NCBI GenBank assembly: GCA_963402885.1
Contig: OY727099.1
Span: forward strand, 5,196,001-5,260,000
Reading direction: 5' to 3'
Origin: Antedon bifida
Taxonomy: Eukaryota > Echinodermata > Crinoidea > Comatulida > Antedonidae
Length of the DNA stretch: 64,000 nt
Positions 6,299-64,000 of this stretch are shown one piece after another. The translations under genes and the position numbers were made by a program. The first letter of the stretch is position 1. Each line of letters begins with the position of its first letter. The notes below the pieces were generated by a model. That model was not told the origin of the DNA and did no database searches. It saw only the letters and a list, made by a program, of their open reading frames with translations.

Positions 6299-10022
<3,724 letters not shown>

Positions 10023-16761: not shown

Positions 16762-19700
16762 ATGTCGAGCTTTGAGAAGGTATGGTTAAAAACTGTGATT
16801 GTTTTACTGGCTTATTCATCATAAGTTATGTTCTTTAACAATAAAATATGAAGTCACTGCATGCTAAATATATTTTTACGTTAGGTAGTGTTGTAAATAT
16901 TTACCAAACTTGTACAGATGACTAAAAATATTACAGAAAATGCACAGGCTTATTCACTCGAGTTGTCGGGAGTGTGACTCGAGACAAACCGGCCAGAGAA
17001 AAGCATGTGTGGCTGCTTTGCTCAGAGTGTGTGGCATGGCCGAAACTAAACCTGCCTTTGACCTAACTCTAAGCCTAGCTAACGAAAGTCCATTGAAATG
17101 TGATTGATTGTATGTTGTGCTTTTGGATTTATTTATTTTTTTATTAAATTCTGCTAAAATTTTGCTTTTTTATATAAAGAAAGTTATAAATTAAAAAAGT
17201 AAATCTAGGCCTAGAAAATAGAAAGCCCCTTTTTAAAATTTTTAATTTTAGTTTCACAGATAAGCCGGATTAAACTAGGCCCTAGTAGTATTTTTTTTTA
17301 CTAGCCTTGAATGAAGTACTCTGTCTCTGTAGGCCTAGGAACCATTGGTGTATACTGTATGTTGTGCACAATTTGAATGATTTGCCAATTTGAAATTGCT
17401 CCTTCGGATCGAGGTGTATTATTATCCTATCCTAGAGTAGCCTATATTTTTTCTTATTTCAGTAGGCCGATTGTAATTTGTGGTATGTCAATGATGCTTT
17501 ACCTACATTGTATGATATTTAATGATCACAAAATACATTTTCCTGAGACATCACCACGTTACCACACAGTAACATTTTTGTCCTTACTCTGTGTAGGCCT
17601 AATTTCAACGTTTATCATTTAACACTTTTTTTCTTGCAGGTGATCATTATTGATGGTAGAGGGCACCTTCTGGGTCGCCTGGCTACCATCGTTGCCAAAA
17701 ACATTCTTCAAGGTATGATAAAATGATTTCCTTCAAGAAATTTGTTTCTAAACAAATAATTTTTCGGTGATGATGGATAACTGCTGAATCAGTTTTGAAG
17801 AAAAACCCTTTACATGCACTACCATCTGAGAAAAAAAAAATTGTCAAACATTTTTGCCAGTGTAGCACCGAACCCCCATGATTAACCACACCGAACCCCC
17901 CTACGCTCGCGCTAACCGCTCGCCAATTCGCCAATGGCGACTGGAGTCTCCATTTGGCGAAAATAATTATTGCCTCGTTCGCCAAATAGGCGAAAATACA
18001 TTTCCAAGCCTAGGCCTAGCCTGGTCGGCGTGACTTCTTATGGGAGCGAGAATTCGCCACACTTCGGTACTTTTTGACTCGGGTACACTTTTTACCACCA
18101 CAGCATTTTATGTGACGATGTCACGATCGCCGTGTTCATTTTTTTAGTTCTGTTTAAACATGCGCAGAGCGTGCCTCGATGACGTTTTAATGACACACAG
18201 TTAATGTGATTGGTTCGTGGCCGGCCGTCGTCGACGTGATGATGAGCGAATAAAAGGGGAAGTCCCTATTCTTCGACGTAGAAAATGAACTTCGAGAAGA
18301 AAATATAAACAGAAACATGTGGACGAATACTTCCGTAAACGAGGCTGTTCTGTTATTTAAAATAGGGAATTTTAAATTTAACAAAGTAATTACCTCAATA
18401 GTATAATGTTAACATGTTTAATTTTATTTCCCTTTCGATTATTCTAACCGAAAGTTGCGCTTTAAATTGAATAGCTAAGAAACAGCGTATACTACAACGG
18501 CAACCCTGGCCAAACCGCGTTTCGGCCGCCTACATAGAATGGGTTACGGCCGCTGCATAGCAAATTCAAAGCTTCTTAAATTTCTGCGGTACATTTGTTC
18601 CTAACGTACTTGTTTTATATAATAGATTGATAAATATTCCACTTATTAAATATTTAATAAATCGGTAAATAAAATTGACGTTTCGAAGCAAATATTCCAT
18701 GATGAGAGGCGACATTTTTCGACATGCCTCGTGTGCGGCGAAGACTAGTTCAGAAAATGGAACAGTCCACTGCGGGGGTTATCCAATCATTAATTAACGC
18801 GCTAATACATGCATACCATGCACATTGCCTGGGCGACAGTAATTTAGTAATAAGCGGAGAACTAAATCCCCCGTAAGGAAAATGGTAAACACTGATATTT
18901 ATGGTAGGGATTATTTTTTTCAGTGGTTGGTCTTGTTGGCTTCTTCGCACGAGGTCCACGCAAAGTCAAATAAAACGATGTGGTTTATCAAACAGAAATA
19001 TAAATTAGCTTTAATTCAATACTAAATTAGCCAGATTTTGATAATGAGAAAGACTCAAAAATTCAATTTTTATCGTTAAAATTGACATATGAGGCGGATG
19101 TACATAATAATAATAACCGATTTACGTATCAAAATAAAGAGTATTTAAAGCCTGATAACATGCAACAAAAATTACTCCACCACCTATTATGGACCTCGTG
19201 CGATCGGGTGCGAAAATGGGTAGGTGTTTTCCAAAGTTATTTTTAGCGCGCGGATTTCGGCTCGCCGGCTTTTGTACCTCATTTTTAACTCGCGTTTTCT
19301 ATTAAAATATTTAATAAACATAGATTAAAAATATATAAAAATAATCCCTTAAACAAGATCTTTCCAGGCATATAATTTTTATTCTCATAGGTACATAAGA
19401 AATAGTATATTTTTAACTTCAAAGACACGTCACTTTTTGAAATTTCACGAACGTGTTAAAATCGCGGTAACGAAAATCAGCTTCATTGGGATACCTAATA
19501 ATAATAATATATAAATGTAAAAGAAGTAAAATAACAAACAAATACATGCATTATTTATTTAATTAACATTTTTGCGAATTTTTATGTTTTTTTAAATTTG
19601 GCTAAAGGATTTTCAATTTGGCTAATGTTTTTCAAAACCTTTCGCCATTTTGGCGAACGAAAATTTGACCTTAGCGCGAGCGTAGCCCCCATGATTTAAA

Positions 19701-22224
19701 CCACACCGAACCCCCATGATTTAAACCACACCGAACCCCAATGATGAACCACACCGAACCCCAATGATGAACCACACCGAACCCAATGATGAACCACACC
19801 GAACCCAATTTAACTAAGTCCGACAAATTACCATAATTAGCCACATCATGCAGTTTACGATGGGCCAGTTACAAGATCAGTTCCTCTAAAAATGTCTTCA
19901 TGGACTAATTATCGCTAAGTTTGCTGGGTAGATCACCAACTTACCCGGATAAATAAATAACATTCCCATCAAGTAGTAAATCTATATCATGTTCTTATTT
20001 CACTATTTTTCATAGGTCAAAGGATCGTCGTGGTAAGATGTGAAGGTATTAACATTTCTGGAAGTTTCTACAGAAACAAATGTAAGTAATTACAAACTGC
20101 TTTAAATTCTCTCTTTTCTGACAAAAAGAAACATAAACGTTTAGTAATATGTCTATGATGTTTTACCTACATTGTTTGATTTAATGAAAAAAACATTCAA
20201 TTTCTGAGACATTTACATATCATAAAAATGATTTTGATTGAAATTTATAGTTAATAGTTATCAGTTCTTGACTAATGTTCTTAAAAGCCGAAAGTTAGTA
20301 ATGTGTATGTATTATTAATTTTCGATAGTGAAGTATCTTGATTTTCTGCGTAAACGATGTAACACGAAGCCTTCCCGTGGCCCGTACCATCTTAGAGCAC
20401 CAAGCAAGATGTTCTGGAGAGTAGTCCGAGGTAAAGTTAATACTTTTAACGATTTTTACCAATGACATTTATAGAAAACCACATCAATGATGAATTCTTT
20501 TTTTCTGGATATTCTATGACAGTTTTTGACATTTGAAATCTGAGATGTGTGTGTATTGCCATGGACATAAGAGTTAAATCCTGGTGTAGCAAGTGCCCTT
20601 TGCGCCTTCAATGTTCCGCAGTTCTATGTGATAGCATTGACGCTGCTAGACAAACACATTTTATTTTGGGAAAAAAAACATGATGTGGTCTAGTACTACC
20701 CTGTAATTAACAAATATAAAATATGTGACTGTCCATGAGATTTCTTTTCACATGTTTAGTGTATGGACCATGTGCAATAGTACTTGCCTGTTCCAATTAA
20801 AAACTGTAGGGATGTATATCGGTTAATTCTCCCATACAGCATTGTTTAATCATTCACTATTTTGTGATTGTTCATTAATTGAATGCTTATTTCATATCAG
20901 GTATGCTCCCACACAAGCTAGCCCGTGGAAAGGAAGCTTTAGAGAAACTGAAGGTGTTTGAAGGCATTCCACCTCCATACGACAAGAAAAAGAGAATGGT
21001 TATACCTGCCGCTCTTAAAGTACTCAAACTTAAGCCCAACAGAAAGGTTAGTATGACAGTTGTACTTCCAAGCCTAGAGTACTAAGTATTACAGTATATA
21101 TTAAGGTTTATGAACGTAGTTTGAGCAAGGTGATCATGAATAATTTCAAGGGATCTACTTTCAACATATCAACATTAATAGAGTTTTTGTACAGTATCAA
21201 CATGTCGATGATGGCTTATTCAGCGGAATGAAACATATGTGATTCTAAAATTAAACTACTGAGACATGTTTTCCCATTCAACATAATTATTAGCTTTTTA
21301 GGGATCCACTCATCAATACATTTTTATTTAAAAATTAAATTCCCTAGAATGTGAATTTCTATGTACCTTGTTCAAATGTGCAAATATGGTATTGTTATCT
21401 TAATGCAGTTTCGTAAAGATTTTGTATTTGATGGCTTTTAGTTTTGTGATCTCGGACGTCTCGGCCACGAAGTTGGATGGAAGTACAAGGATGTTGTAGA
21501 AACGTTGGAGACAAAACGTAAAGCGAGGTCGCAAATCCGGTATGAGAGGAAAAAGAAGTTGCAGGTGTGTTGACATTGAAATTTGATATTCAGATTTAGT
21601 ATTGGGTATACTCTATACTATACCACTGATGTTTATATCATTGAAGAATAGGTGTTTTTTTTCAAGCAACTTTTTGAGCCTTTGACAATGCAATCCAGTC
21701 TATATTTTAGTAGTAATGATCATATTTTAGTAGTGAATTTATTTAACTATGTCTTTTTCAATATTTACGGGCTGAACTATTTTTTTAGCTCTTCACATGA
21801 TATATGTTTTATTCCTGTTTATAACCTATTTTTGGGTAAATAGAAAGAAAGAAACTGGGTGCCCAAAACCGCAACATTTCAGTAGATCTTTTAATAACTT
21901 TTTGTTTGCGTCTGTGATGATATGTAACTCTCTGATCATCAATAAATGAGAGAAAACAATTTACATGCACTACCATCTGAGACAAAATGCAAATGAGCAA
22001 AATGTTATATGACCCATTATACTATTATTCAATACACTGAACGTGTGCATATTATATGTACAAAGGTTAAGACCTTACATAATGAGTGTTGGAAATAATA
22101 TCTCAATATATCATACAATTCTTGTATTTTAATCTTTCAGAGCATCCGAAAACAAGCTGCTGAAAATGTGATGCCCCAGATCTCAGAACAACAGAAATTC
22201 ATTGAATCTTGCGGCTACCGTTAA
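16762..22224 (+). CDS. RPL13A: RPL13A, 60S ribosomal protein L13a (uL13)
   Basis: Seven coding exons join in frame: 16762-16779, 17640-17712, 20016-20081, 20329-20430, 20901-21046, 21442-21564 and 22141-22224. They total 612 nt or 203 aa, identical in length to human RPL13A. Diagnostic segments are [20 protein letters not shown] (residues 7-26), [37 protein letters not shown], and [19 protein letters not shown]. Family role: large-subunit ribosomal protein uL13; vertebrate L13a also has an extraribosomal GAIT translation-silencing role that cannot be judged here. Exon 1 encodes only MSSFEK. As in vertebrates the introns host box C/D snoRNAs, here in introns 1 to 6 and also in a 3'UTR intron. 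Intron 2 is swollen to 2.3 kb by a transposon and a minisatellite. A TOP-like start and short 5'UTR suggest growth-linked translation control. Confidence 0.98.
17482..17555 (+). ncRNA. SNORD34: Box C/D snoRNA, U34 (SNORD34)-like, RPL13A intron 1
   Basis: ATGTC (17485-17489) pairs with GACAT (17547-17551) as the terminal stem. Box C is a weak AATGATGC, box D is CTGA at 17543-17546. Upstream of a D'-like TATGA is the guide TTTACCTACATTG, the same as in human U34, which directs 2'-O-methylation of 28S rRNA (human U2824) in CAATGTAGGTAA. The imperfect box C may mean a weaker or decaying copy; the intron 3 copy looks better. Confidence 0.8.
17760..17835 (+). ncRNA. SNORD33: Box C/D snoRNA, U33 (SNORD33)-like, RPL13A intron 2
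   Basis: Box C GTGATGA is at 17767-17773, a D'-like CTGA at 17784-17787 and box D CTGA at 17826-17829, framed by a TTTTTC/GAAAAA stem. The guide TTTACATGCACTACCAT lies directly before box D and matches human U33, which targets 18S rRNA (human U1326). The fifth base upstream of box D is A, which would pair with the methylated U. Confidence 0.85.
17901..19685. mobile_element. 1.8-kb non-autonomous DNA transposon in RPL13A intron 2
   Basis: The element starts CTACGCTCGCGCTAA and ends TTAGCGCGAGCGTAG, perfect 15-bp inverted termini, with further CGCCAA/TTGGCG pairs just inside. It is flanked by CCCCC on both sides and interrupts a CCGAACCCCCATGATT minisatellite whose pieces continue on either side, so insertion into that array is clear. 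Inside, GCCTCGTGTGCGGCGAAGAC (18725) and GGCTTCTTCGCACGAGG (18940) form a further inverted pair. Open frames inside are short and unrelated to known transposases. The superfamily is undetermined because the target duplication (up to 5 C) is ambiguous. Confidence 0.85.
19686..19808. repeat. 22-23 bp minisatellite interrupted by the transposon
   Basis: Units of the form ACCACACCGAACCCCAATGATGA repeat about six times. One to two further units, CACCGAACCCCC, lie at 17866-17900 on the other side of the inserted element. Unit spelling drifts from CCCCCATGATTTAA to CCCAATGATGA along the array. Confidence 0.88.
20149..20212 (+). ncRNA. SNORD34: Box C/D snoRNA, U34 (SNORD34)-like, RPL13A intron 3
   Basis: The terminal stem ATGTC/GACAT encloses box C ATGATGT (20155-20161) and box D CTGA (20204-20207). 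TTTTACCTACATTGTTTGA reproduces the human U34 guide and its D'-like end. It is a paralogue of the intron 1 copy and the better preserved of the two. Confidence 0.9.
20480..20549 (+). ncRNA. Box C/D snoRNA candidate, RPL13A intron 4, target unknown
   Basis: A perfect CACATC/GATGTG terminal stem brackets box C AATGATGA and box D CTGA (20540-20543), about 70 nt in all. The bases before box D, TTTGACATTTGAAAT, do not match any rRNA site I can recall, and the sequence does not resemble U32 or U35. It occupies an intron of a known snoRNA host gene at the right size, which supports a real snoRNA, possibly with a different guide. Confidence 0.75.
21200..21269 (+). ncRNA. Box C/D snoRNA candidate, RPL13A intron 5, target unknown
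   Basis: A perfect 7-bp stem ACATGTC/GACATGT encloses box C GATGATG and box D CTGA (21259-21262). Possible guides are TTATTCAGCGG near the middle and AAAATTAAACTA before box D. Neither gave a match to rRNA that I can assert from memory. Size, stem and boxes are textbook C/D. Confidence 0.78.
21905..21985 (+). ncRNA. SNORD33: Box C/D snoRNA, U33 (SNORD33)-like, RPL13A intron 6
   Basis: A GTCT/AGAC stem (21910-21913 with 21980-21983) encloses box C GTGATGA (21914-21920), D' CTGA (21932-21935) and box D CTGA (21977-21980). The guide TTTACATGCACTACCAT equals the human U33 guide and those at 17760 and 22334. Its D'-side text TCTCTGATCATCAATAAATG is shared with the 3'UTR copy, so these two are the closest pair. 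Confidence 0.92.
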
Positions 22225-22333
22225 TATTTAAAAAGAAACTTTATAAAATCTGCAGGTACTTGTTAAATTTCCTAATTTAATTTCAAACATTCTATAAATG
22301 ACACTTGTTTTCATTGGTATTTGCTATTTAAAT

Positions 22334-22411
22334 TTGTCTGTGATGATGACCGTATTCTCTGATCATTCATAGATGAGAGAAAACCTTTACATGCACTACC
22401 ATCTGAGACTA
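22334..22411 (+). ncRNA. SNORD33: Box C/D snoRNA, U33 (SNORD33)-like, in the RPL13A 3'UTR intron
   Basis: The GTCT/AGAC stem (22336-22339 with 22406-22409) holds box C GTGATGA (22340-22346), D' CTGA near 22359 and box D CTGA (22403-22406). The guide TTTACATGCACTACCAT is the same as in introns 2 and 6. This third U33-like copy lies after the stop codon, which would need the 3'UTR intron for release. Confidence 0.9.
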
Positions 22412-22619
22412 AATGCCAATGTTCATCTTATACAATTTGTGAATATCGCAGATTTCATTATTAAATTTAGTATTTTAGCCTAAATGCCTTGAAAACACTT
22501 TTGTCAAGTTCCATTTCATGTTCATTTTTTTTTTCTTTCAAAACCATTACAGTAGTTGACCTTAGGTTTATGAGATATTATAACCCATCATGTTCCAAAT
22601 GTTACATGAGTTATATATA

Positions 22620-25672: not shown

Positions 25673-27872
25673 TTAGGTGGCTGAACTCGCTGATTGCTCA
25701 ATAGACTGCTTTGACGTCTGCTTGACTTTGTAGTCGTTGAGGGCAGCCTTGATAGCATCTTCAGCCAACACTAAAAAAATTAGGATAAAAATATAAATGC
25801 TGTATTGTATTAAAAATACTATAGTCAACACAAGTCAAATGTTTTTTCGAATATAATTTTTTCGAATATAATTTTTTTCCAAATATTTGTTCAATATAGT
25901 ACAGTAGAACCCCTGTGTGGAGCACCTCTATTCAGGGGACATATTAAAGGGTCCATTTTCTGTGAATTTCCGGGCATCGTTTGGTGGCAGCACTCGACAC
26001 AAAGGGACCCTTTAGGGGAGAAGAAAGTTGTGGTATGTGTCGTCCACACCTGTGTGCAATTCAGCCCCGTAGGATGAAAGTCGCAGGTTATCTCTCACTT
26101 ACATTTACAACAACTATTCAGGAGGCAACCTTATTAAGGAGACATTTTGTTGGGTATAGAAGGTGTCCCCTTAATAATGGTCTTAATATATATAAGAATC
26201 TAATTGACTATAAGTAAACATACTTGAACAATGAAGCTTGACCGGTGGAAGACACAATTCTTTTGCAATATCTTTGTTCTTGATTTCAGTGGCCTCATCC
26301 AGCTACAAAGTGTAAAAAAAAAAAAAAAGAAATGCACTCAATGAATGAAGAAATAAAAGTTAAAATTGATTGAACTTTAATAATATTAATAATACTAAGC
26401 ATTTATAAAGCACTCTTAAACTGCTGTCTCACAGAGTGAAAAAGAGTAGAAATCTATTAGAACAAGTGAATTTTAAGAAGAGGCTTAAATTGCTTATTGT
26501 GACGGATGTAAAATGGAAGCCGATTCCAGATCAATGGTGCTTGAGCAAAAAAACCTTTTGGGAGTGAAAACTTTGTTTTAACTCTCTTGTCTGTTGTTTG
26601 TTCAGACTTGGAAAGGTGCAGATAATTTCAACATGTAATATTTTTATTTATTTCTCGCCCCAAACAGCTACATGTTGTAGCTTATAGTTTACCACGGCTG
26701 AAAAAATGGGTATTTGGAAACTGGGACTGGGCATGCGCACACCCAAAAGCACGTATGGGAAAAGAGAGTCATTTGCTGCGTTTTTTGTAAGAAATATTTT
26801 TTGTTTATTATTAACAGAGTATATCCCAGATGGTTTGGGTACGAAATTTGGCAAAAATAAATTTGACTAGGATTTCATTAACAAAGGAAAATGGCCAATG
26901 ACATAATGTCTATATTTAGCCTACTCACAGTCTTTCCTTTCACCCATTCAGTGGCTAAAGAACTTGAAGCAATCGCTGAGCCACAACCAAATGTCTTGAA
27001 TTTAGCATCAACAATTTTACCATCATCATCAACTTTGATCTGAAAGCAAGAACGTCAAAAAATCAGATACCTGTACCTGTAAATACAACGACTAAAATTG
27101 TTTTAGCCAAAAACTTTATTTTTATCCAATAATACATCTTTTAGGGTTGAAGAATCCTTTTATTGGGAGTGTGGAAGATTAAAAATAAAGAATTTTTAAA
27201 TCATATTTTCATTTTTAAGTTCATAATCATAGAATTCGACTAAATGATGTGCACGTCACTACCTGAAGTTTCATAACATCACCACATGCTGGCGCTCCAA
27301 CTAATCCAGTTCCAACATTCGCATCTTCTTTATCCAATGCGCCCACATTACGTGGGTTCTCATAATGATCGATCACCTATTAAAAAACAATCATCATATT
27401 TCATTAAAGATTCAATGCAATCGATCAATAATGTACATGTTGTAAACAAATCTTTATTTATTCAAACTCTAGAAGAAACTAGCCTACTACTAGATAGAGG
27501 TCTAGCTAAATACATCATTTATTCATTCAATTACATGAAGTGAAGAAAAAAACAAAGCAACCTACAATAACATAACTTTATTTATATTGTGACGACAATG
27601 AGATAAAAATGGGCTTTATTAAACTACAAAACAAAAGTGTGATTGAAGGGCGAAACGACCAGGCATGAAAACGCCACAAGGCAAAAGACGAATTGCGCAT
27701 GCTATTTATTACATAACATGTGAAGTAAACAAGCAATGTTATTAATTTAATTACACGTAAATTTCATGTTTTCACTCACATTCTTATGATAACTTGACGA
27801 TAAACTAACGATAGCATTTCTCTTTTGGAGAACCAAACGCAGCGATTTTCCAAATTCACGGGCAAGTGCCAT
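25673..27872 (-). CDS. ISCU: ISCU, mitochondrial iron-sulfur cluster assembly scaffold
   Basis: Five exons on the minus strand join in frame: 27780-27872, 27263-27376, 26929-27039, 26224-26302 and 25673-25770, giving 164 aa. Residues 1-30 are basic and Ser-rich, a mitochondrial presequence. The mature part starts HKNVIDHYENPRNVG. Fe-S ligands are in place: Cys62 and Asp64 in APACGDV, Cys88 in TFGCGSA, His130 and Cys131 in LHCS; LPPVK at 125-129 is the HSC70-chaperone binding motif. Family role: the scaffold on which NFS1-ISD11-ACP, frataxin and ferredoxin build [2Fe-2S] clusters in the matrix. The next gene, on the plus strand, is a mitochondrial ferredoxin, a possible electron donor to this scaffold; the two diverge from one point. 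Intron 3 contains an interspersed repeat and intron 4 parts of two repeat families. Confidence 0.97.
25898..26182. repeat. GTAGAAC-family and family E repeat fragments in ISCU intron 4
   Basis: ACAGTAGAACCCCTGTGTGG ... TTCAGGGGACA opens and GGTGTCCCCTTAATAATGG closes the stretch, as in the GTAGAAC family. Between them GTCGTCCACACCTGTGTGCA ATTCAGCCC matches 56345-56380 in inverse, so a family E fragment lies inside. The open frame across it is not a gene. Confidence 0.7.
26380..26610. repeat. Interspersed repeat in ISCU intron 3
   Basis: It reads TAATAATACTAAGCATTTAT, AAAGCACTCTTAAACTGCTG, TCTCACAGAGTG, then GGATGTAAAATGGAAGCCGA and TTCCAGATCAATGGTGC. I recognise this order as a widespread repeat of marine deuterostome genomes but cannot name the family. 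Confidence 0.5.
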
Positions 27873-28013
27873 TATTTTAGAGTCTTCTTTTGATGCGTTT
27901 TATTATTTTTTTAAGAATATGGATGGATGGGTCATGAGTTTATTTTGTGGTTGTTTTGCGCCCTCTCAACTCAGGCCTGACTTAGAGGGCGCAATACACA
28001 ATTTAAAAAACAG
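27873..28013. promoter_or_regulatory. Remnant of a compact ISCU-FDX divergent promoter
   Basis: These 141 bp lie between the ISCU start codon and the left end of the 4.2-kb insertion. If the insertion and one copy of its AAAACAG target duplication are removed, the ISCU and ferredoxin start codons were about 140 bp apart, so one short promoter probably served both. It contains a palindrome at about 27954-27992: TTGCGCCCTCT and AGAGGGCGCAA are perfect inverse arms around a CAGGCCTG centre. No TATA box was recognised. The promoter role is inferred from layout only. Confidence 0.5.
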
Positions 28014-28358
28014 GAGGTATATTCAGAGCGTCATTCTGACGATGGAGCATTCTCCTCTTTTAGTTTGCAAAAGTAATCTCGAAAAGAACTTCATGTGGAA
28101 AAGAAGCCCACCCAAGAGTACTAAAAAATGAAGGAGCACATGGGCTTCTTTTCGAGGTTTTATGGTAGTCTATTTAATGGAAAATAATGCCATGCAACTT
28201 TGTTTCTGATTTTAAAAAAGGTCCACTTGTTTTAGGCCTGACATTTACAACCCTCAAAATATCTCTCTTTTAAAATAAAGAAAAACAATATTCATTATTT
28301 TATTTATTTATTTATTTTTAATTTTTTTTTTTTTTTTATTTAAAAAAAAAAAATATCC

Positions 28359-28430
28359 GTAGAGGTTCGAACTCAATCTACTAGAGCTGAGAGTACCCAA
28401 ACCTGAGCATTACCCGTTAGGCCACAAAGT
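28359..28430 (-). repeat. tRNA-like SINE head, minus strand
   Basis: On the minus strand GTGGCCTAACGGGTAATGC is box-A-like and GAGTTCGAACCTC box-B-like, at tRNA spacing. It is followed by a long T/A-rich tract. The acceptor stem is poor, so this is a tRNA-derived remnant. It diverges from the plus-strand head at 28530. Confidence 0.65.
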
Positions 28431-28529
28431 AGTACATGACTGAACAGCTGATAATAGTCTATTTATACGTGTATTACGTAATTCATCAGTACGTCATAAC
28501 TATCATATTAACTTTGTTAAAACCAAAAT

Positions 28530-28780
28530 GATCAGTTAGCTCAGTCGCCTGAGCGTCGTGTTGACAACACGTATGTCGTGGGTTCGATTCCCACGCTGGT
28601 CGGTGGAATAGAGTTAAAGGCATGCGGCCACTGTGTTTGGGGTTCACAGAATTATACGTCCCCCTTTCCACCACACACCATGAGGCGACAACATCAATGC
28701 ATCTGGTGATGTGCTGGAAACGACCCCAAAAGGCTGTGGCAGGGCCTTAGTGCTGAGGCAGGGAGAGCACATTTAACATC
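28530..28780 (+). repeat. tRNA-derived SINE, first copy
   Basis: Bases 28530-28602 fold into a full 73-nt cloverleaf: acceptor GATCAGT/GCTGGTC, D arm GCTC/GAGC, anticodon arm TCGTG-TTGACAA-CACGT with anticodon GAC, and T arm GTGGG-TTCGATT-CCCAC. GAC (Val) is not normally used by animal nuclear tRNAs, base 27-43 is a T-T mismatch, and a SINE-like body follows (GTTAAAGGCATGCGGCCACT ... GGCAGGGAGAGCACATTTA) ending in T/A-rich sequence. It is therefore a SINE head with intact Pol III boxes, not a tRNA gene. Confidence 0.82.
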
Positions 28781-30207
28781 TTTTTTTATTTAATTTTTTT
28801 TTTCAACCCGTATTTGATCTCGTAAATTTTATGTTTGCCGCCCTCAATTTTAAAAGAAATTGAATTTATATTTTCATCGCAGGTGTACGAAACGGTTTGG
28901 TATGCCGTGCGTTGTTATGCAATGGTTATGCAGGTGTAGTGGGAAAGATGGTATTGTTTAGTCATTCGCGGTCAACACGCCACACCGTTAAATTTTGATT
29001 TTGTTAATCAATGTTGCTACATTGGTAGCGAAAATGTCCGGTTCATACAAGATATTCTATTGTAAAATGTTATGAATAAACTTTGATAGTAGTTGCTGTG
29101 TATGGCCGCACCGTCCCCAGAATAAACATGTTTTAAACAGATAGTTTGTCTTCGATGGTTTTTGTATGGGGATAATGGAGAGTAAAATAAGATCAAATAT
29201 AGAACATTTGCAAAGATGCCGATTTTTAGACCATTTCGAAGCTTAGACTAATTCCGCCGCCGGGCTAGGCCTTAGGCATATACGAAGTCGAGTTTTAAAG
29301 TAGAAAACCCCACCTAAAATGTTGAAGTCACATCTGGATTGTTGAAATTTTAACATTATCATAATTATCATAGGTGATTATGTATAGTTATAAGTATATG
29401 TGCAAATCTTGACTCTATTTTCATTATTAGCTCTGCCCCAACCATGGTGGGCTAGTACTGGAGACTTAACATTTAATTTCATATGTTAATGAATTATAGG
29501 TGCACTTTCCGATGACAAGCTCTATTGTCGTCCCTGGTGAGTCTTATATAGTTTGTTTCATATAATTTAAAATCATGTAAAGTGCCATTTTTTTGGGCGG
29601 GAACCTATGCAGCTCGATTTTTCAAAATTATCTTTGCTCAGCCCCAAGAATGGTGGGGTACTGAAGATTCCTATACATGTTTGAAAAAATAATAGATGTC
29701 ATTTCCGGAGACCTTGCAGCTTTATTTTAAACAGTTTGGTATGCCGTGCGTTGTTATGCAAATGAGTTTGTGCAGGTGTATTATGAGGAAGATGGTCAAC
29801 ACGTCACACTGTTAAATTTTGATGTTGTTAATCTTTACATTAGAAGATTGTTCAAATCATGTAAATAAAACATTTTCCGGCCGGGAACCTATCAGCTCCC
29901 CTCTTTTAGTTTGCAAAAGTAATCTCGAAAAGAACTTCATGTGGAAAAGAAGCCCACCCAAGAGTACTAAAAAATGAAGGAGCACATGGGCTTCTTTTCG
30001 AGTTTTTATGGTAGTCTATTTAATGGAAAATAATGCCATGCAACTTTGTTTCTGATTTTAAAAAAGGTTCACTTGTTTTAGGCCTGACATTTACAACCCT
30101 CAAAATATCTCTCTTTTAAAATAAAGAAAAACAATATTCATTATTTTATTTATTTATTTATTTATTTTTTATTTATTTATTTTTTTTATTTAAAAAAAAA
30201 AATATCC

Positions 30208-30279
30208 GTAGAGGTTCGAACTCAATCTACTAGAGCTGAGAGCACCCAAACCTGAGCATTACCCGTTAGGCCACAAAGT
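30208..30279 (-). repeat. tRNA-like SINE head, minus strand, second copy
   Basis: This is the duplicate of 28359-28430 with one visible substitution in the central loop. The A-like and B-like boxes are kept. Confidence 0.63.
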
Positions 30280-30378
30280 AGTACATGACTGAACATCTGA
30301 TAATAGTCTATTTATACGTGTATTACGTAATTCATCAGTACGTCATAACTATCATATTAACTTCGTTAAAACCAAAAT

Positions 30379-30630
30379 GATCAGTTAGCTCAGTCGCCTG
30401 AGCGTCGTGTTGACAACACGTATGTCGTGGGTTCGATTCCCACGCTGGTCGGTGGAATAGAGTTAAAGGCATGCGGCCACTGTGTTTGGGGTTCACAGAA
30501 TTATACGTCCCCCTTTCCACCACACATCATGAGGCGACAACATCAATGCATCTGGTGATGTGCTGGAAACGACCCCAAAAGGCTGTGGCAGGGCCTTAGT
30601 GCTGAGGCAGGGAGAGCACATTTAACATCT
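30379..30630 (+). repeat. tRNA-derived SINE, second copy
   Basis: It is the duplicate of 28530-28780. The 73-nt cloverleaf with anticodon GAC is identical to the first copy, while flanking bases differ (for example CACACATCATG for CACACACCATG). Confidence 0.82.
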
Positions 30631-31734
30631 TTTTTTTTTATTTAATTTTTTTTTTCAACCCGTATTTGATCTCGTAAATTTTATGTTTGCCGCCCTCATT
30701 TTTAAAATAAATTGAATTTATATTTTCATCGCAGGTGTACGAACCGGTTTGGTATGCCGTGCGTTGTTATGCAATGGTTGTGCAGGTGTAGTGGGAAAGA
30801 TGGCATTGTTAGTCATTCGCGGTCAACGCGCCACACTGTTAAATTTTGATTTTGTTAATGTTGCTACATTGGTAGCGAAAATGTCCGATTCATGCAAGAT
30901 ATTGTATTGTAAAATGTTATGAATAAACTTTTATGGTAGTTGGTGTGTATGGCCGCACCGTCCCCAGAATAAACATGTTTTAAACAGATAGTTTGTCTCC
31001 GATGGTTTTTGTATGGGGTTAATGGAGAGTGAAATAAGATCAAATATATTCCAAAGTAGACTAATTCCGCCGTCGGACTACTATACGAAGTCAAGTTTTA
31101 AAGTAGAAACACACCTACAACTTTGAAGTCGCATCTGGATAGTTGAAATGTTAACATTACCATATTATTATCATAGGTGATTATGTATAGTAATAAGTAT
31201 AAGTGCAATTCTGGGCTCTATTTTCATTATTATTAGCTCTGCCACAACCATGGTGGGCTAGTACTGGAGACTTAATATTTAATTTCATATTTCCATGAAT
31301 AGGTGCACTCTCCGGGGACACTAAATAAGTATTTATCTTAGACAAACGCAGGTTATTAAAATCACTGATATGGCTTGAAACTAATTTTTATAGAGTACCG
31401 ATATTTAACATATATACCTGGAAGTTATATTTTTGAAGTATTTTCAGAAGTAATTTTAAAAATTCAAACATGATGTGGGTCCCGTAATTTCACCTATGTT
31501 ACACTGTATATAGATATACAGTACACTGTAGAGTATAGAGCATATATTCTATGACACATAATAGTCACCAATCGGCACCATAAGCATCATATCATGTCAC
31601 AGGATTGCATAAATCAATATTTTGCAGTAATATTTAACATACGTGCATACGTGCAAAATTAAATATCAGTAAAATTATAAAAATGATCACCTAAAATTCG
31701 TCAAAGTGACGAATTAAATTCTAGTTCTCGATGT

Positions 31735-32125
31735 TTTTGTATGTGCTTCGCTGTGCTCCACCACTGGTGCCAAATTGGATCCACTGAAGCACAGTGTATT
31801 AACATACGAAAATATATTGAAACTTAATTGAGTCCACTTATTAACATACGAAAAAATATTAACATTCAGTGACTTACTTCTAGTTTACATCACTGTGCTC
31901 CACTGGTACCAAATTGTGTCCACTTGAGCACAGTGTATTAACATACGAAAAGATATTGAAACTTAAATGACTTTATTTCTATTTTATATCACTGTGCTCC
32001 GCTTGCGCCATATTGGGTTCACTTGAGCACAGTGTATTAACATACGAAAAGATTAAAATTTAGTGACTTTATTTCTATTTTATATCACTGTGCTACCCTG
32101 GTGCTAAATTGGGTCCACTTGAGCA
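31735..32125. repeat. About 104-bp tandem repeats upstream of FDX
   Basis: About four imperfect units each carry CACTGTGCTCC, then CTGGTRCCAAATTG, then CACTTGAGCACAGTGTATTA and ACATACGAAAA. CACTGTGCTC and GAGCACAGTG are inverse, so each unit can form a hairpin. Units start near 31748, 31890, 31988 and 32083. They lie inside the right end of the 4.2-kb insertion, 105-500 bp before the FDX start codon. Confidence 0.85.
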
Positions 32126-32230
32126 GAATTTCTATTATTGAAGTTAATAAAGGCATAAATGGCGCTCCGTAGAGAAGTAGAGGATGCTCCAGTCGCCAGA
32201 ATGACGCTCTGAATATACCTCAAAACAGAG

Positions 32231-35202
32231 ATGGCAGCCTTTCGAAGTATAACGCGAAATCTGATTTGCAACTCAAAGCAGTATTTTCAACAAGTGTTAA
32301 CACATCAAACTACCGCAAACTACATTCGACTAAAACCAATAACATCATGTAATATACTTGTTGGTCGATTTTCCTCTGTACATCCAAATCAAGCCAAAGA
32401 AACGTAAGTGAAAGTTAGGCCCAGACGCTACTGCTGTTGCTTCTTCTTGTGAAAACGCAACCTTGACTTGATTTCCTTCCTTGTGTGAGACATAGGCCGG
32501 TTATTCAGACTGTAGGCCTAGCCTAGCTAGGTATTATAATTTAATACCATACTGTTTATTACACTTTTGTTTATTTAATGCATTCAGGATTTAGGAGGGA
32601 ATATCTCACACCCACAGCATTATTAATTTAATGGAACAGAATTTAAAAATCATTTAATTATAGGCCTCTACCTAGGCTAGCTAGGCCTAGACCCAGGCCT
32701 ATCTAGAGAGGCCTAAGTTACTAAAAAAAAAGGCTAGGCCTAGTACTGTAAATTTAAAATTATATATTAATTACTAAGTACTAATAGTATACTGGAATAG
32801 TCTATAGCCTAATTGAACTTAATTAATTTTTTCTGTTCTAGGAAGGCTCAACATGCCTCTAGAAATTGAAAACTAGGCCTATTAATAAAAAATTGTATGA
32901 ATAATATATTATTACTTATCAACAGGATAAATGTGACATACATAAACAGAGATGGTGAAAAGGAAACCGTAAAAACTGCACTTGGTGAAAACCTTCTAGA
33001 TATTGTACTTGATAATGACCTAGATATCGATGGATTTGGTAAGAATAACACTGTCATACTAATCTACCCGTGGTAATGGTTAATAAATATATGACAAAAA
33101 ATGATATACAGTAGAAATTTTTTTCATACAACTAAAAATATGGATGAGCTATGCTTGACGTGATCTAAGATCATGTTCCGAATATGAGCACTGTTTCTAT
33201 AATTTGACAGTATGATTTATATATAATTATAGGTATATATTTTTCTTTAAAGAAACAATTTAAAATCAAATATTAATATATTGTTAAACTTTTCATTCTA
33301 ACTAAAGCATGTTAATCGTCAGCTTCTTCGCCATAAAACATTGCTTATGACAGTGGGTGGTCTTCGGTTTCCTAATAAACCTAATCAGTATTTTTTAAAT
33401 TAAAAAAGTATAAAATGTACACAGTTTAAAAAAAAAAAGAAAGGGTACACTTCTTCAAGTGGAGTATATACTAACTTAACTAAAAGCATACATGTCCCAC
33501 GCATCTGATGTGAGGCTAATGCTTTTTAATGCAAGCTCTTCCGCCACGCATCTAAAAACTTTTTACAAATCTCAATCTCTTTTCTTAAATTACTTGAAAA
33601 TGTCAAAATTCTATGATTTAATCACCAAGGTATTTGAAATCACCTTTTTATGAAAATTCTAATGTATCTGAATTAACACTTCACAGGCAAATGTATAAAG
33701 CTCTGCCTACACTATCATAGTTTATGTGACAAAATGTGATGTGCTCATACAGTATATGGACATTATGATGTCATATCACTACCATATTTGGGCATATAAT
33801 GACCATACTTGAGCATGTCACACTTTTTGGTCAAACTAGTTTGAATGATAGTGAAGACAGAGCTTTAGGTTACTGTTATACTGTACATGTACCTGCATTA
33901 CCATATATGGTATAACTACTCCACATACTGTTTACTCATACTTTCATAGAATGTAGTGTGTAAATGTCGTCTGATAGTGTCACAGTCATTTTGTTTGTCA
34001 TAGGTCAGATAGTGTCTTGGCTGCTTAACCTTTGTTTGTCTACATCTGATTGATGTCATGTGTACTTTGAGCCACTATTTATACTCGCCTACTTTTCTAA
34101 CTGACTGGCCCCTATTATTCAAATAAATACACCTAGGAATAAGTGTGTCACACACAATAAAAAAAATCCAGAAAGATGTATTTTCCGACAAAAACATGAA
34201 AAATGAAGATTAATAAAATTTGAACAAAATTAACCAAAACAATATTATTGTTACTTATAAAATGACAAAATAAACACTTAAGTTCAACCAAAAACCCATT
34301 GGCTGACAGCCAATTTACTATTTTTTTTGGCTTTAAATTACAGTTTTTTCAGGTAAATAAAATGTTTTCGATCTACTGTAATTTTTTTGTCAAAGTGGAT
34401 AACTATTATGTGACATTAAGATGGCATAAACAAAAAATTGAAGAATTTTTTTTCAGGAGACAACATCTTTAAATTATTTGAAAATGATTTGTTTTTTTAG
34501 GTGCCTGTGAAGGGACATTAGCCTGCTCAACATGCCATTTGATATTCAAGAAAGAAATCTTTGATCAACTTCCCGGTGCCACAGATGAAGAAATGGATAT
34601 GTTAGATCTTGCGTATGGACTTGAAGAAACGTAAATCTATTATTATATAAAATTTATTATTTTTCAACATTTATATATAAAATATACATAATCATCTATA
34701 CCCTTTCACAATTGCAAAAAAAGTAACAACTTGTAACCAGGTTTGCATAGTGTGAAGAAAATTTTGTGGAAAAGATAAAACACCGATGAGAGGCCTGTTT
34801 TTGTTTTTGATATGTCTCGAGTTGTTACTGCACATGTGTGTATTGCCTGGTATTCAACTGACCAATCATAGTAATCATATAATGCACTATGTGATACAGT
34901 GCACTAAGTCCTTCCATAGGGAATTAATAGTAGTATTCATCATGATACGATACACAGACATAAGCCATATCTCCTCTCCGAGTTAGTGGTGTTTTTAAAT
35001 ACAAAACATACAAAACAATATATAAAATGTGCCAAAGCAAAGTAAATTATTCACACATAATGGCAGAATTCCAATTTATAACTATTGTATTCATTTCCGT
35101 ATTTCTAGATCTCGTTTAGGTTGTCAAGTGTGTGTAACTAAAGATATGGATGGAATGGTGGTCAGAGTTCCTGAAGGGGTCAGCGATGCTAGAGATGTCT
35201 GA
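32231..35202 (+). CDS. FDX1: Mitochondrial [2Fe-2S] ferredoxin, adrenodoxin (FDX1) type
   Basis: Four exons, 32231-32403, 32926-33038, 34501-34630 and 35109-35202, join in frame to 169 aa. Residues 1-55 are basic, rich in Ser, Thr and Gln, without acidic residues, and fit a matrix presequence. The adrenodoxin core follows: [11 protein letters not shown], the cluster ligands Cys98, Cys104 and Cys107 in [23 protein letters not shown], and Cys144 in SRLGCQVC. The MLDLAYGL and VRVPE...SDARDV segments side with FDX1 rather than FDX2. Family role: takes electrons from ferredoxin reductase and passes them to mitochondrial P450s, lipoyl synthesis and, mainly for FDX2, the ISCU assembly complex. The start is AGAG-ATGG, only 9 bp after the end of an inserted element, so the promoter or 5'UTR must lie in or beyond that element. 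A single ferredoxin serving both roles here is possible but unproven. Confidence 0.95.
33696..33867. mobile_element. Palindromic MITE (family A), copy 5, in FDX intron 2
   Basis: The outer edges TAAAGCTCTGCCTACACTAT and ATAGTGAAGACAGAGCTTTA are inverted and both end in TA, the best case for a TA target site. The interior carries GTGATGTGCTCATACAGTAT and TATCACTACCATATTTGGGC. Confidence 0.92.
34150..34470. repeat. GTAGAAC-family body, inverted, in FDX intron 2
   Basis: AATGACAAAATAAACACTTA, AACCCATTGGCTGACAGCCA, TTTAAATTACAGTTTTTTCA and GTGGATAACTATTATGTGAC are the reverse of the 23290-23520 order. The copy ends about 30 bp before exon 3. Confidence 0.78.
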
Positions 35203-38533: not shown

Positions 38534-63692
<25,159 letters not shown>

Positions 63693-64000
63693 GTAAAAAA
63701 AAAAAGTTTGCCGTACACCATGTATTTCCAAATTTGTCTTGATGTTTTGGTTATTATGCATCTTCTTTGTATTAAGTCATGCAAAAGTTGGGTTTAGAAC
63801 TACATCCAGTTGCAGAATGAGACATAAAAACATTTATTCTAAACCAGTGTGGCCAGCGATAGAAATAAAATTATGTTAGGTAGCAATTATGGTCAAAATT
63901 GCACAAAAACAATGTATCAGAGGGTGTATGTATATATTTTATGTACCACAAAAGTGAGAAGCCCAAAAAAAGAAAAAAAAAAGGTTGCCAGGGTTTCGGC

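Follow-up and report, generated by a model that had tools for sequence, protein, structure and literature searches.

A tRNA-carrying non-autonomous transposon lies between the divergent start codons of ISCU and FDX1 in the crinoid Antedon bifida

The ISCU-FDX1 gene pair

The window analysed here is a 64,000-bp stretch of the Antedon bifida genome (C12:5196001-5260000; the genome searched comprises 315.6 Mb in 27 contigs), in which the genes for ISCU and the ferredoxin FDX1 are arranged head to head with a transposon between their start codons. All positions are those of the window. The 4358 bp at 27873-32230 are the entire DNA that at present separates the two start codons, that of ISCU being read on the minus strand (27872-27870) and that of FDX1 on the plus strand (32231-32233). 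The genes are thus divergent, their start codons facing away from each other as described in the original prediction, which had been made from the sequence alone.

The ISCU coding region (25673-27872, minus strand) consists of five exons in the gene model (27872-27780, 27376-27263, 27039-26929, 26302-26224 and 25770-25673), with the stop codon read from the sequence. Its protein contains the Pfam domain NifU_N (1.3e-55), and its top PDB matches are ISCU chains (1.3e-70). By homology, the minus-strand gene is ISCU, a NifU_N scaffold close to known ISCU chains. The FDX1 coding region (32231-35202, plus strand) was modelled in the same way as four exons (32231-32403, 32926-33038, 34501-34630 and 35109-35202). 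Its protein finds adrenodoxin as the top PDB match (4.2e-48), with the best FDX2 chains at 4.2e-22 and 5.1e-22, and over the aligned parts shares 64% identity with human FDX1 and 38% with human FDX2. On these matches, the plus-strand ferredoxin is of the FDX1 (adrenodoxin) type rather than FDX2. All seven introns of the two models have GT-AG borders, and both genes are intact and in frame.

A transposon between the start codons

Most of the intervening DNA is a 4208-bp element (28014-32221) bounded by inverted arms of 29 nt each (28014-28042 and 32193-32221), which are 97% alike. The element is flanked by perfect 7-bp copies of AAAACAG (28007-28013 and 32222-32228). Its end is not a chance match, as the first 19 nt occur twice in the window against an expectation of 0.01. 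Its inverted ends, together with a target-site duplication whose length is fixed at 7 bp, make the element a terminal-inverted-repeat (TIR) DNA transposon. It contains two units, each with a tRNA-Val-like gene (GAC) predicted on the plus strand (28529-28603 and 30378-30452), and, in a subterminal position, tandem repeats with a period of about 99 bp (31839-32125; 2.9 copies).

Removal of the element and one copy of the duplication leaves 143 bp between the start codons (4358 - 4208 - 7), which agrees with the previously proposed spacing of about 140 bp, later split by an insertion of about 4.2 kb. The split is lopsided. The ISCU side keeps 141 nt of old intergenic DNA, including one AAAACAG copy (27873-28013), and the FDX1 side keeps 9 nt, AAAACAG plus AG (32222-32230), so that the FDX1 ATG is preceded by a duplication copy and two further nucleotides and then by the element. 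FDX1 keeps its start context, with G at -3 and G at +4, because the duplication restores the original nucleotides. Like the bidirectional gene pairs of animals, ISCU and FDX1 have divergent start codons and, once the element is removed, a short gap, whereas the genes as they stand are 4358 bp apart. They differ from such pairs in that a 4.2-kb transposon has split the gap, nearly all of it at the cost of one gene, and in that two-way activity is putative.

The transposon family

A genome-wide search for the 25-nt end of the element, allowing up to three mismatches, returned 394 places (100 of them listed) and none for the reversed control; at two ends per copy, the family would number about 200 copies. 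Nineteen further paired copies of 2.5-8.6 kb were extracted, 14 with an exact 7-bp duplication and five without, and a copy of about 14 kb is flanked on both sides by GCCTAGT. All 14 exact duplications differ from one another and from the AAAACAG of the window, and insertion sites are accordingly varied. Each of the 20 copies (the window element and the 19 others) carries at least one tRNA-like gene. The 40 genes found comprise 37 of Val identity, one of Ile and two without clear identity, and they are arranged in units of about 1.75-1.85 kb with up to four units per copy. One copy (L047, G000:C9:32876900-32884900) has four tRNA-Val-like genes about 1748 bp apart. Frames of at least 120 amino acids occur in three of the 20 copies, none of them recognised as a transposase on inspection by eye, and those of one copy (L048) resemble nested retroelement code. 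The 14-kb copy was considered as an autonomous member and rejected, as it has no frame of 150 amino acids or more (its frames were not compared with a library). The window element is a member of a non-autonomous family carrying tRNA-Val-like genes, of which no autonomous copy was found. On the 33.2-Mb contig C1, all 14 exact ends listed fall about 2 Mb or less from one contig end, so that the family may be biased towards subterminal positions.

Among known systems, the P-element superfamily shares with this family its inverted ends and a seeming preference for the 5' ends of genes; for the Drosophila P element, 73% of insertions fall no farther than 500 bp from a transcription start (PMC3878927). 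The P superfamily, however, makes an 8-bp duplication rather than the 7 bp found here, and no transposase was found inside the element. The P-type transposase domain PF21787 has 58 matches in the genome. Those on C1 and C7-C11 include none within 10 kb of the family ends listed (compared by eye with 100 of the 394 ends), and a 4001-base stretch around one match (L089) showed no clear inverted ends. The element was not assigned to the P superfamily. Fifteen PF21787 matches tie at 89.9 bits, and their open frames measure 642 (14 matches) or 638 amino acids (one), so that a recently spread P-like family appears to be present in the genome. Dada elements likewise make a short duplication and have a link to tRNA genes, but they use a fixed site inside small-RNA genes (PMC3706591), whereas members of the present family bear tRNA-like genes themselves and insert at varied sites. 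A Dada identity is ruled out by the target sites, the 14 exact duplications all being different.

Insertion sites of the family

The surroundings of family members were sampled at 63 sites, which amount to roughly one third of the family. The 83 flanks obtained comprise sets of 29 (the first), 22, 20 and 10 (the latest) plus the two flanks of the window; L021, whose tandem ends duplicate L020, was left out of the counts. Across the first 29 flanks, CpG has an observed/expected ratio of 1.12 over the nearest 100 bp, which falls to 0.70 in the following interval and to 0.41-0.78 farther out, and the difference for the nearest 200 bp was reached by 1 of 5000 permutations. Seven of 51 flanks, the window among them, have the pattern GCCCYCTA within 100 bp of the insertion, in every case at 23-50 bp, against eight occurrences in the remaining 71.4 kb; without the window, the six near flanks gave a permutation value of 0.0002. 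In an 8-mer comparison, GAGGGCGC ranks first, being present in 6 of 83 near flanks (window included) and in none of 1255 control segments. Furthermore, GRGGGCGCWA was found within 50 bp at six sites (L064, L066, L073, L085, L051 and L054) and in the window, and twice in the remaining 77.6 kb of flank. The 9-mer GCGCCCTCT is present no more than 100 bp from the insertion at three sites in addition to the window, whereas its genome count predicts 0.11 (Poisson P 2e-4).

Several insertions adjoin apparent gene starts, which were located by eye and homology rather than by unbiased annotation. The L034 insertion lies 35 nt from the start of a gene that encodes an FAA_hydrolase domain and looks FAHD2-like by eye (8.2e-18 for a peptide joined from two exons). 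An iPGM-like first exon begins 70 nt from L072, with matches to three PDB chains, all iPGM (0.006), and a PDZ-like first exon begins 30 nt from L051 (0.028, below the Pfam cut-off). Further plausible first exons lie at 23 nt (L065), 48 nt (L016) and 55 nt (L033), with no family match above the cut-off. At L051, L064/L065, L072/L073 and in the window, the insertion is located between motif and start codon. Most of the 63 sites have neither the motif nor a recognisable gene start. Promoter targeting by the family would be one reading of these flanks.

A more specific proposal, which we regard as doubtful, is that this tRNA-carrying family homes to animal promoters marked by GCGCCCYCTA and inserts 20-50 bp from the motif, between motif and start codon. 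Each insertion would then capture one gene's 5' end while sparing the promoter of its divergent neighbour, uncoupling old two-way promoters such as that of ISCU and FDX1, and the tRNA-like genes inside might serve as a boundary. GCGCCCYCTA is presumably similar to the core of the CTCF motif.

The old gap and its gene neighbourhood

The old intergenic DNA on the ISCU side contains a mirrored motif pair, TTGCGCCCTCT and AGAGGGCGCAA (27956-27994), in which TAGAGGGCGC is presumably akin to the CTCF core. The combination GCGCCCTCT N4-24 AGAGGGCGC is found at two places in the 315-Mb genome, the window included, and the control at none. The single 9-mer GCGCCCTCT occurs 4353 times against 158 for its reversed control, an approximately 28-fold excess, and some matches sit in arrays (e.g. 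12 within C1:178620-179854). A repeated mini-element as the source of the mirrored pair was ruled out by its presence at just two places. The stretch 27940-28013 folds strongly as single-stranded DNA (z -3.74; 0 of 200 shuffles equally stable), which we take as a sign of symmetry only. A mirrored pair in a short gap is what a two-way promoter might have, and an ancestral compact promoter serving both genes appears plausible from the sequence.

Close divergent gene pairs are common in animals, and ISCU and FDX1 could be chance neighbours, with two back-to-back promoters in the 143-bp gap, no shared regulation and no iron-sulfur (Fe-S) logic to their pairing. We consider this a real possibility, if not the likeliest one. 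Human ISCU is on a different chromosome from FDX1. The FDX2 gene of Antedon bifida is located on another contig, C11, separate from the ISCU-FDX1 pair, and its four exons are 47-73% identical to human FDX2 and end in NFYVDGHVPEPH. Beyond FDX1, the next recognised gene, on the same strand, is an ezrin/radixin/moesin (ERM) gene (46510-64000; query human RDX), and FDX1 adjoins RDX in sheep and human (PMC8355708, PMC6764480). This FDX1-ERM neighbourhood, apparently common to Antedon bifida, sheep and human, makes the link of FDX1 to an ERM gene look older than any link to ISCU. Speaking against chance, the recognised coding exons of other neighbouring genes in the window are separated by kilobases, and the mirrored motif pair is nearly unique in the genome.

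The original prediction had further proposed that two proteins of Fe-S chemistry share one compact divergent promoter. The head-to-head arrangement with an old gap of 143 bp stands, but sharing at present is unsupported, as FDX1 has 9 nt of old sequence followed by 4.2 kb of transposon. The prediction had itself noted that FDX1-type proteins are less central to Fe-S assembly than FDX2 in mammals; here, the gene is of FDX1 type and FDX2 lies on C11. In human cells, assembly on ISCU draws its electron from FDX2, and the role of FDX1 is in lipoylation (PMC10470009), so the neighbour of ISCU is not the assembly ferredoxin. With FDX2 on another contig, the argument for Fe-S co-regulation is weakened. 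A literature search found no paper joining ISCU, FDX1 and a bidirectional promoter and none treating FDX1, RDX and synteny together, and among the matches listed for FDX1/ISCU none mentions divergent transcription.

Proposed fate of the promoter after insertion

We have moderate confidence in the following account. ISCU and FDX1 were originally 143 bp apart, and the gap, with its two mirrored GCGCCCTCT motifs, was probably one compact promoter region that would have worked in both directions. A non-autonomous transposon, from a family with an apparent preference for gene 5' ends, then landed 9 nt upstream of the FDX1 ATG. With 9 nt of old sequence and then 4.2 kb of transposon ahead of the gene, transcription of FDX1 must now either begin within the element, most likely in its right part, or, less probably, cross the element in a long leader. 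ISCU would retain the old promoter, which on the assembled chromosome would no longer be common to both genes.

Several observations weigh against this account. The last 330 bp of the element have no TATA box and contain four upstream ATGs. Within the old gap, TATA, CCAAT, ETS, SP1 and NRF1 were matched nowhere, and its CpG observed/expected ratio of 0.69 is at the same level as that of the window (0.71). As for the preference for gene 5' ends, the separate set of 20 flanks gave a CpG ratio of 0.84 vs 0.49-0.88, which is not significant (495 of 5000 permutations). ATG-led frames pointing away from insertions are no longer than those of controls (medians 24 vs 22.5 codons), and 10% vs 29% in controls reach 45 codons or more. 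In addition, the motif patterns were picked after viewing the same flanks, and among the later-fetched flanks the motif is present in 1 of 10 (L085).

Alternatively, the element could be spliced out as a new intron in the 5' untranslated region, with FDX1 transcription beginning in the old gap and shared regulation surviving; transposons turned introns are known (PMC9860276). The left inverted end offers a fair rightward splice donor, GAG/GTATAT (break after 28016), and splicing from it to the AG of the duplication would give almost the old leader plus GAG. Scored with a splice-site model from 20 real introns (22 models, two BDH2 junctions dropped), this donor reaches 6.9 bits, the best GT of 27873-28130, and 8 of the 20 real donors are no higher. 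However, donor-like sites are frequent, 82 of the 280 GTs between 27873 and 32230 scoring at least as high as the weakest real donor, and the acceptor at the duplication scores -3.7, under all 20 real acceptors. Within the last 330 bp, the best acceptor reaches 3.4 (4 of the 20 real ones are no higher), but its use would leave upstream ATGs. Duplications end in AG in 3 of 16 cases (the 14 paired copies, the 14-kb copy and the window), about one being expected. Introners resemble the element in having inverted ends, a target-site duplication and a splice-donor-like end, but differ in size, with family medians of 30-654 nt (PMC9860276) vs 2.5-14 kb here, and the acceptor here is poor. Weakened by that acceptor, the intron is kept as a minor and very improbable alternative to a promoter cut by the transposon.

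Other chromosomes of the species may also retain the 143-bp gap with shared regulation, the insertion being polymorphic. This is compatible with an old compact promoter split by the element, though on balance unlikely. It accords with both genes being intact in frame, with the perfect duplication, and with the assembly having one haplotype here, the FDX1 exons being found at one place. Against it, no fresh sister copy was seen: among 40 scored of 1646 candidates, the one most similar to the right-hand 892 bp of the element is 92% identical over its length and up to 94% piecewise. That identity does not date the insertion, because copies may differ before moving.

Other features of the window

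An RPL13A-like gene (17634-22412, plus strand) contains intronic SNORD33-type and SNORD34 snoRNAs (17760-17835 and 20147-20214), and a third, SNORD33-type snoRNA (22333-22412) lies past the last RPL13A-like exon found. Human RPL13A hosts the same snoRNAs. Exons of a BDH2-like short-chain dehydrogenase were found at 6302-10022 on the minus strand (human query). The left edge of the window is a 52-bp tandem array (1-866; 16.7 copies, 98% alike), and a 27-bp tandem repeat is present at 50431-50745 (11.5 copies).

Implications

With FDX2 elsewhere in the genome, an account of Fe-S co-regulation should not be built on FDX1. The locus offers a clean case for following the fate of a compact divergent promoter cut by a transposon at the doorstep of one gene. 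Beyond this pair, the element may represent a transposon family that targets promoters and that offers about 200 sites for comparison within a single animal genome.

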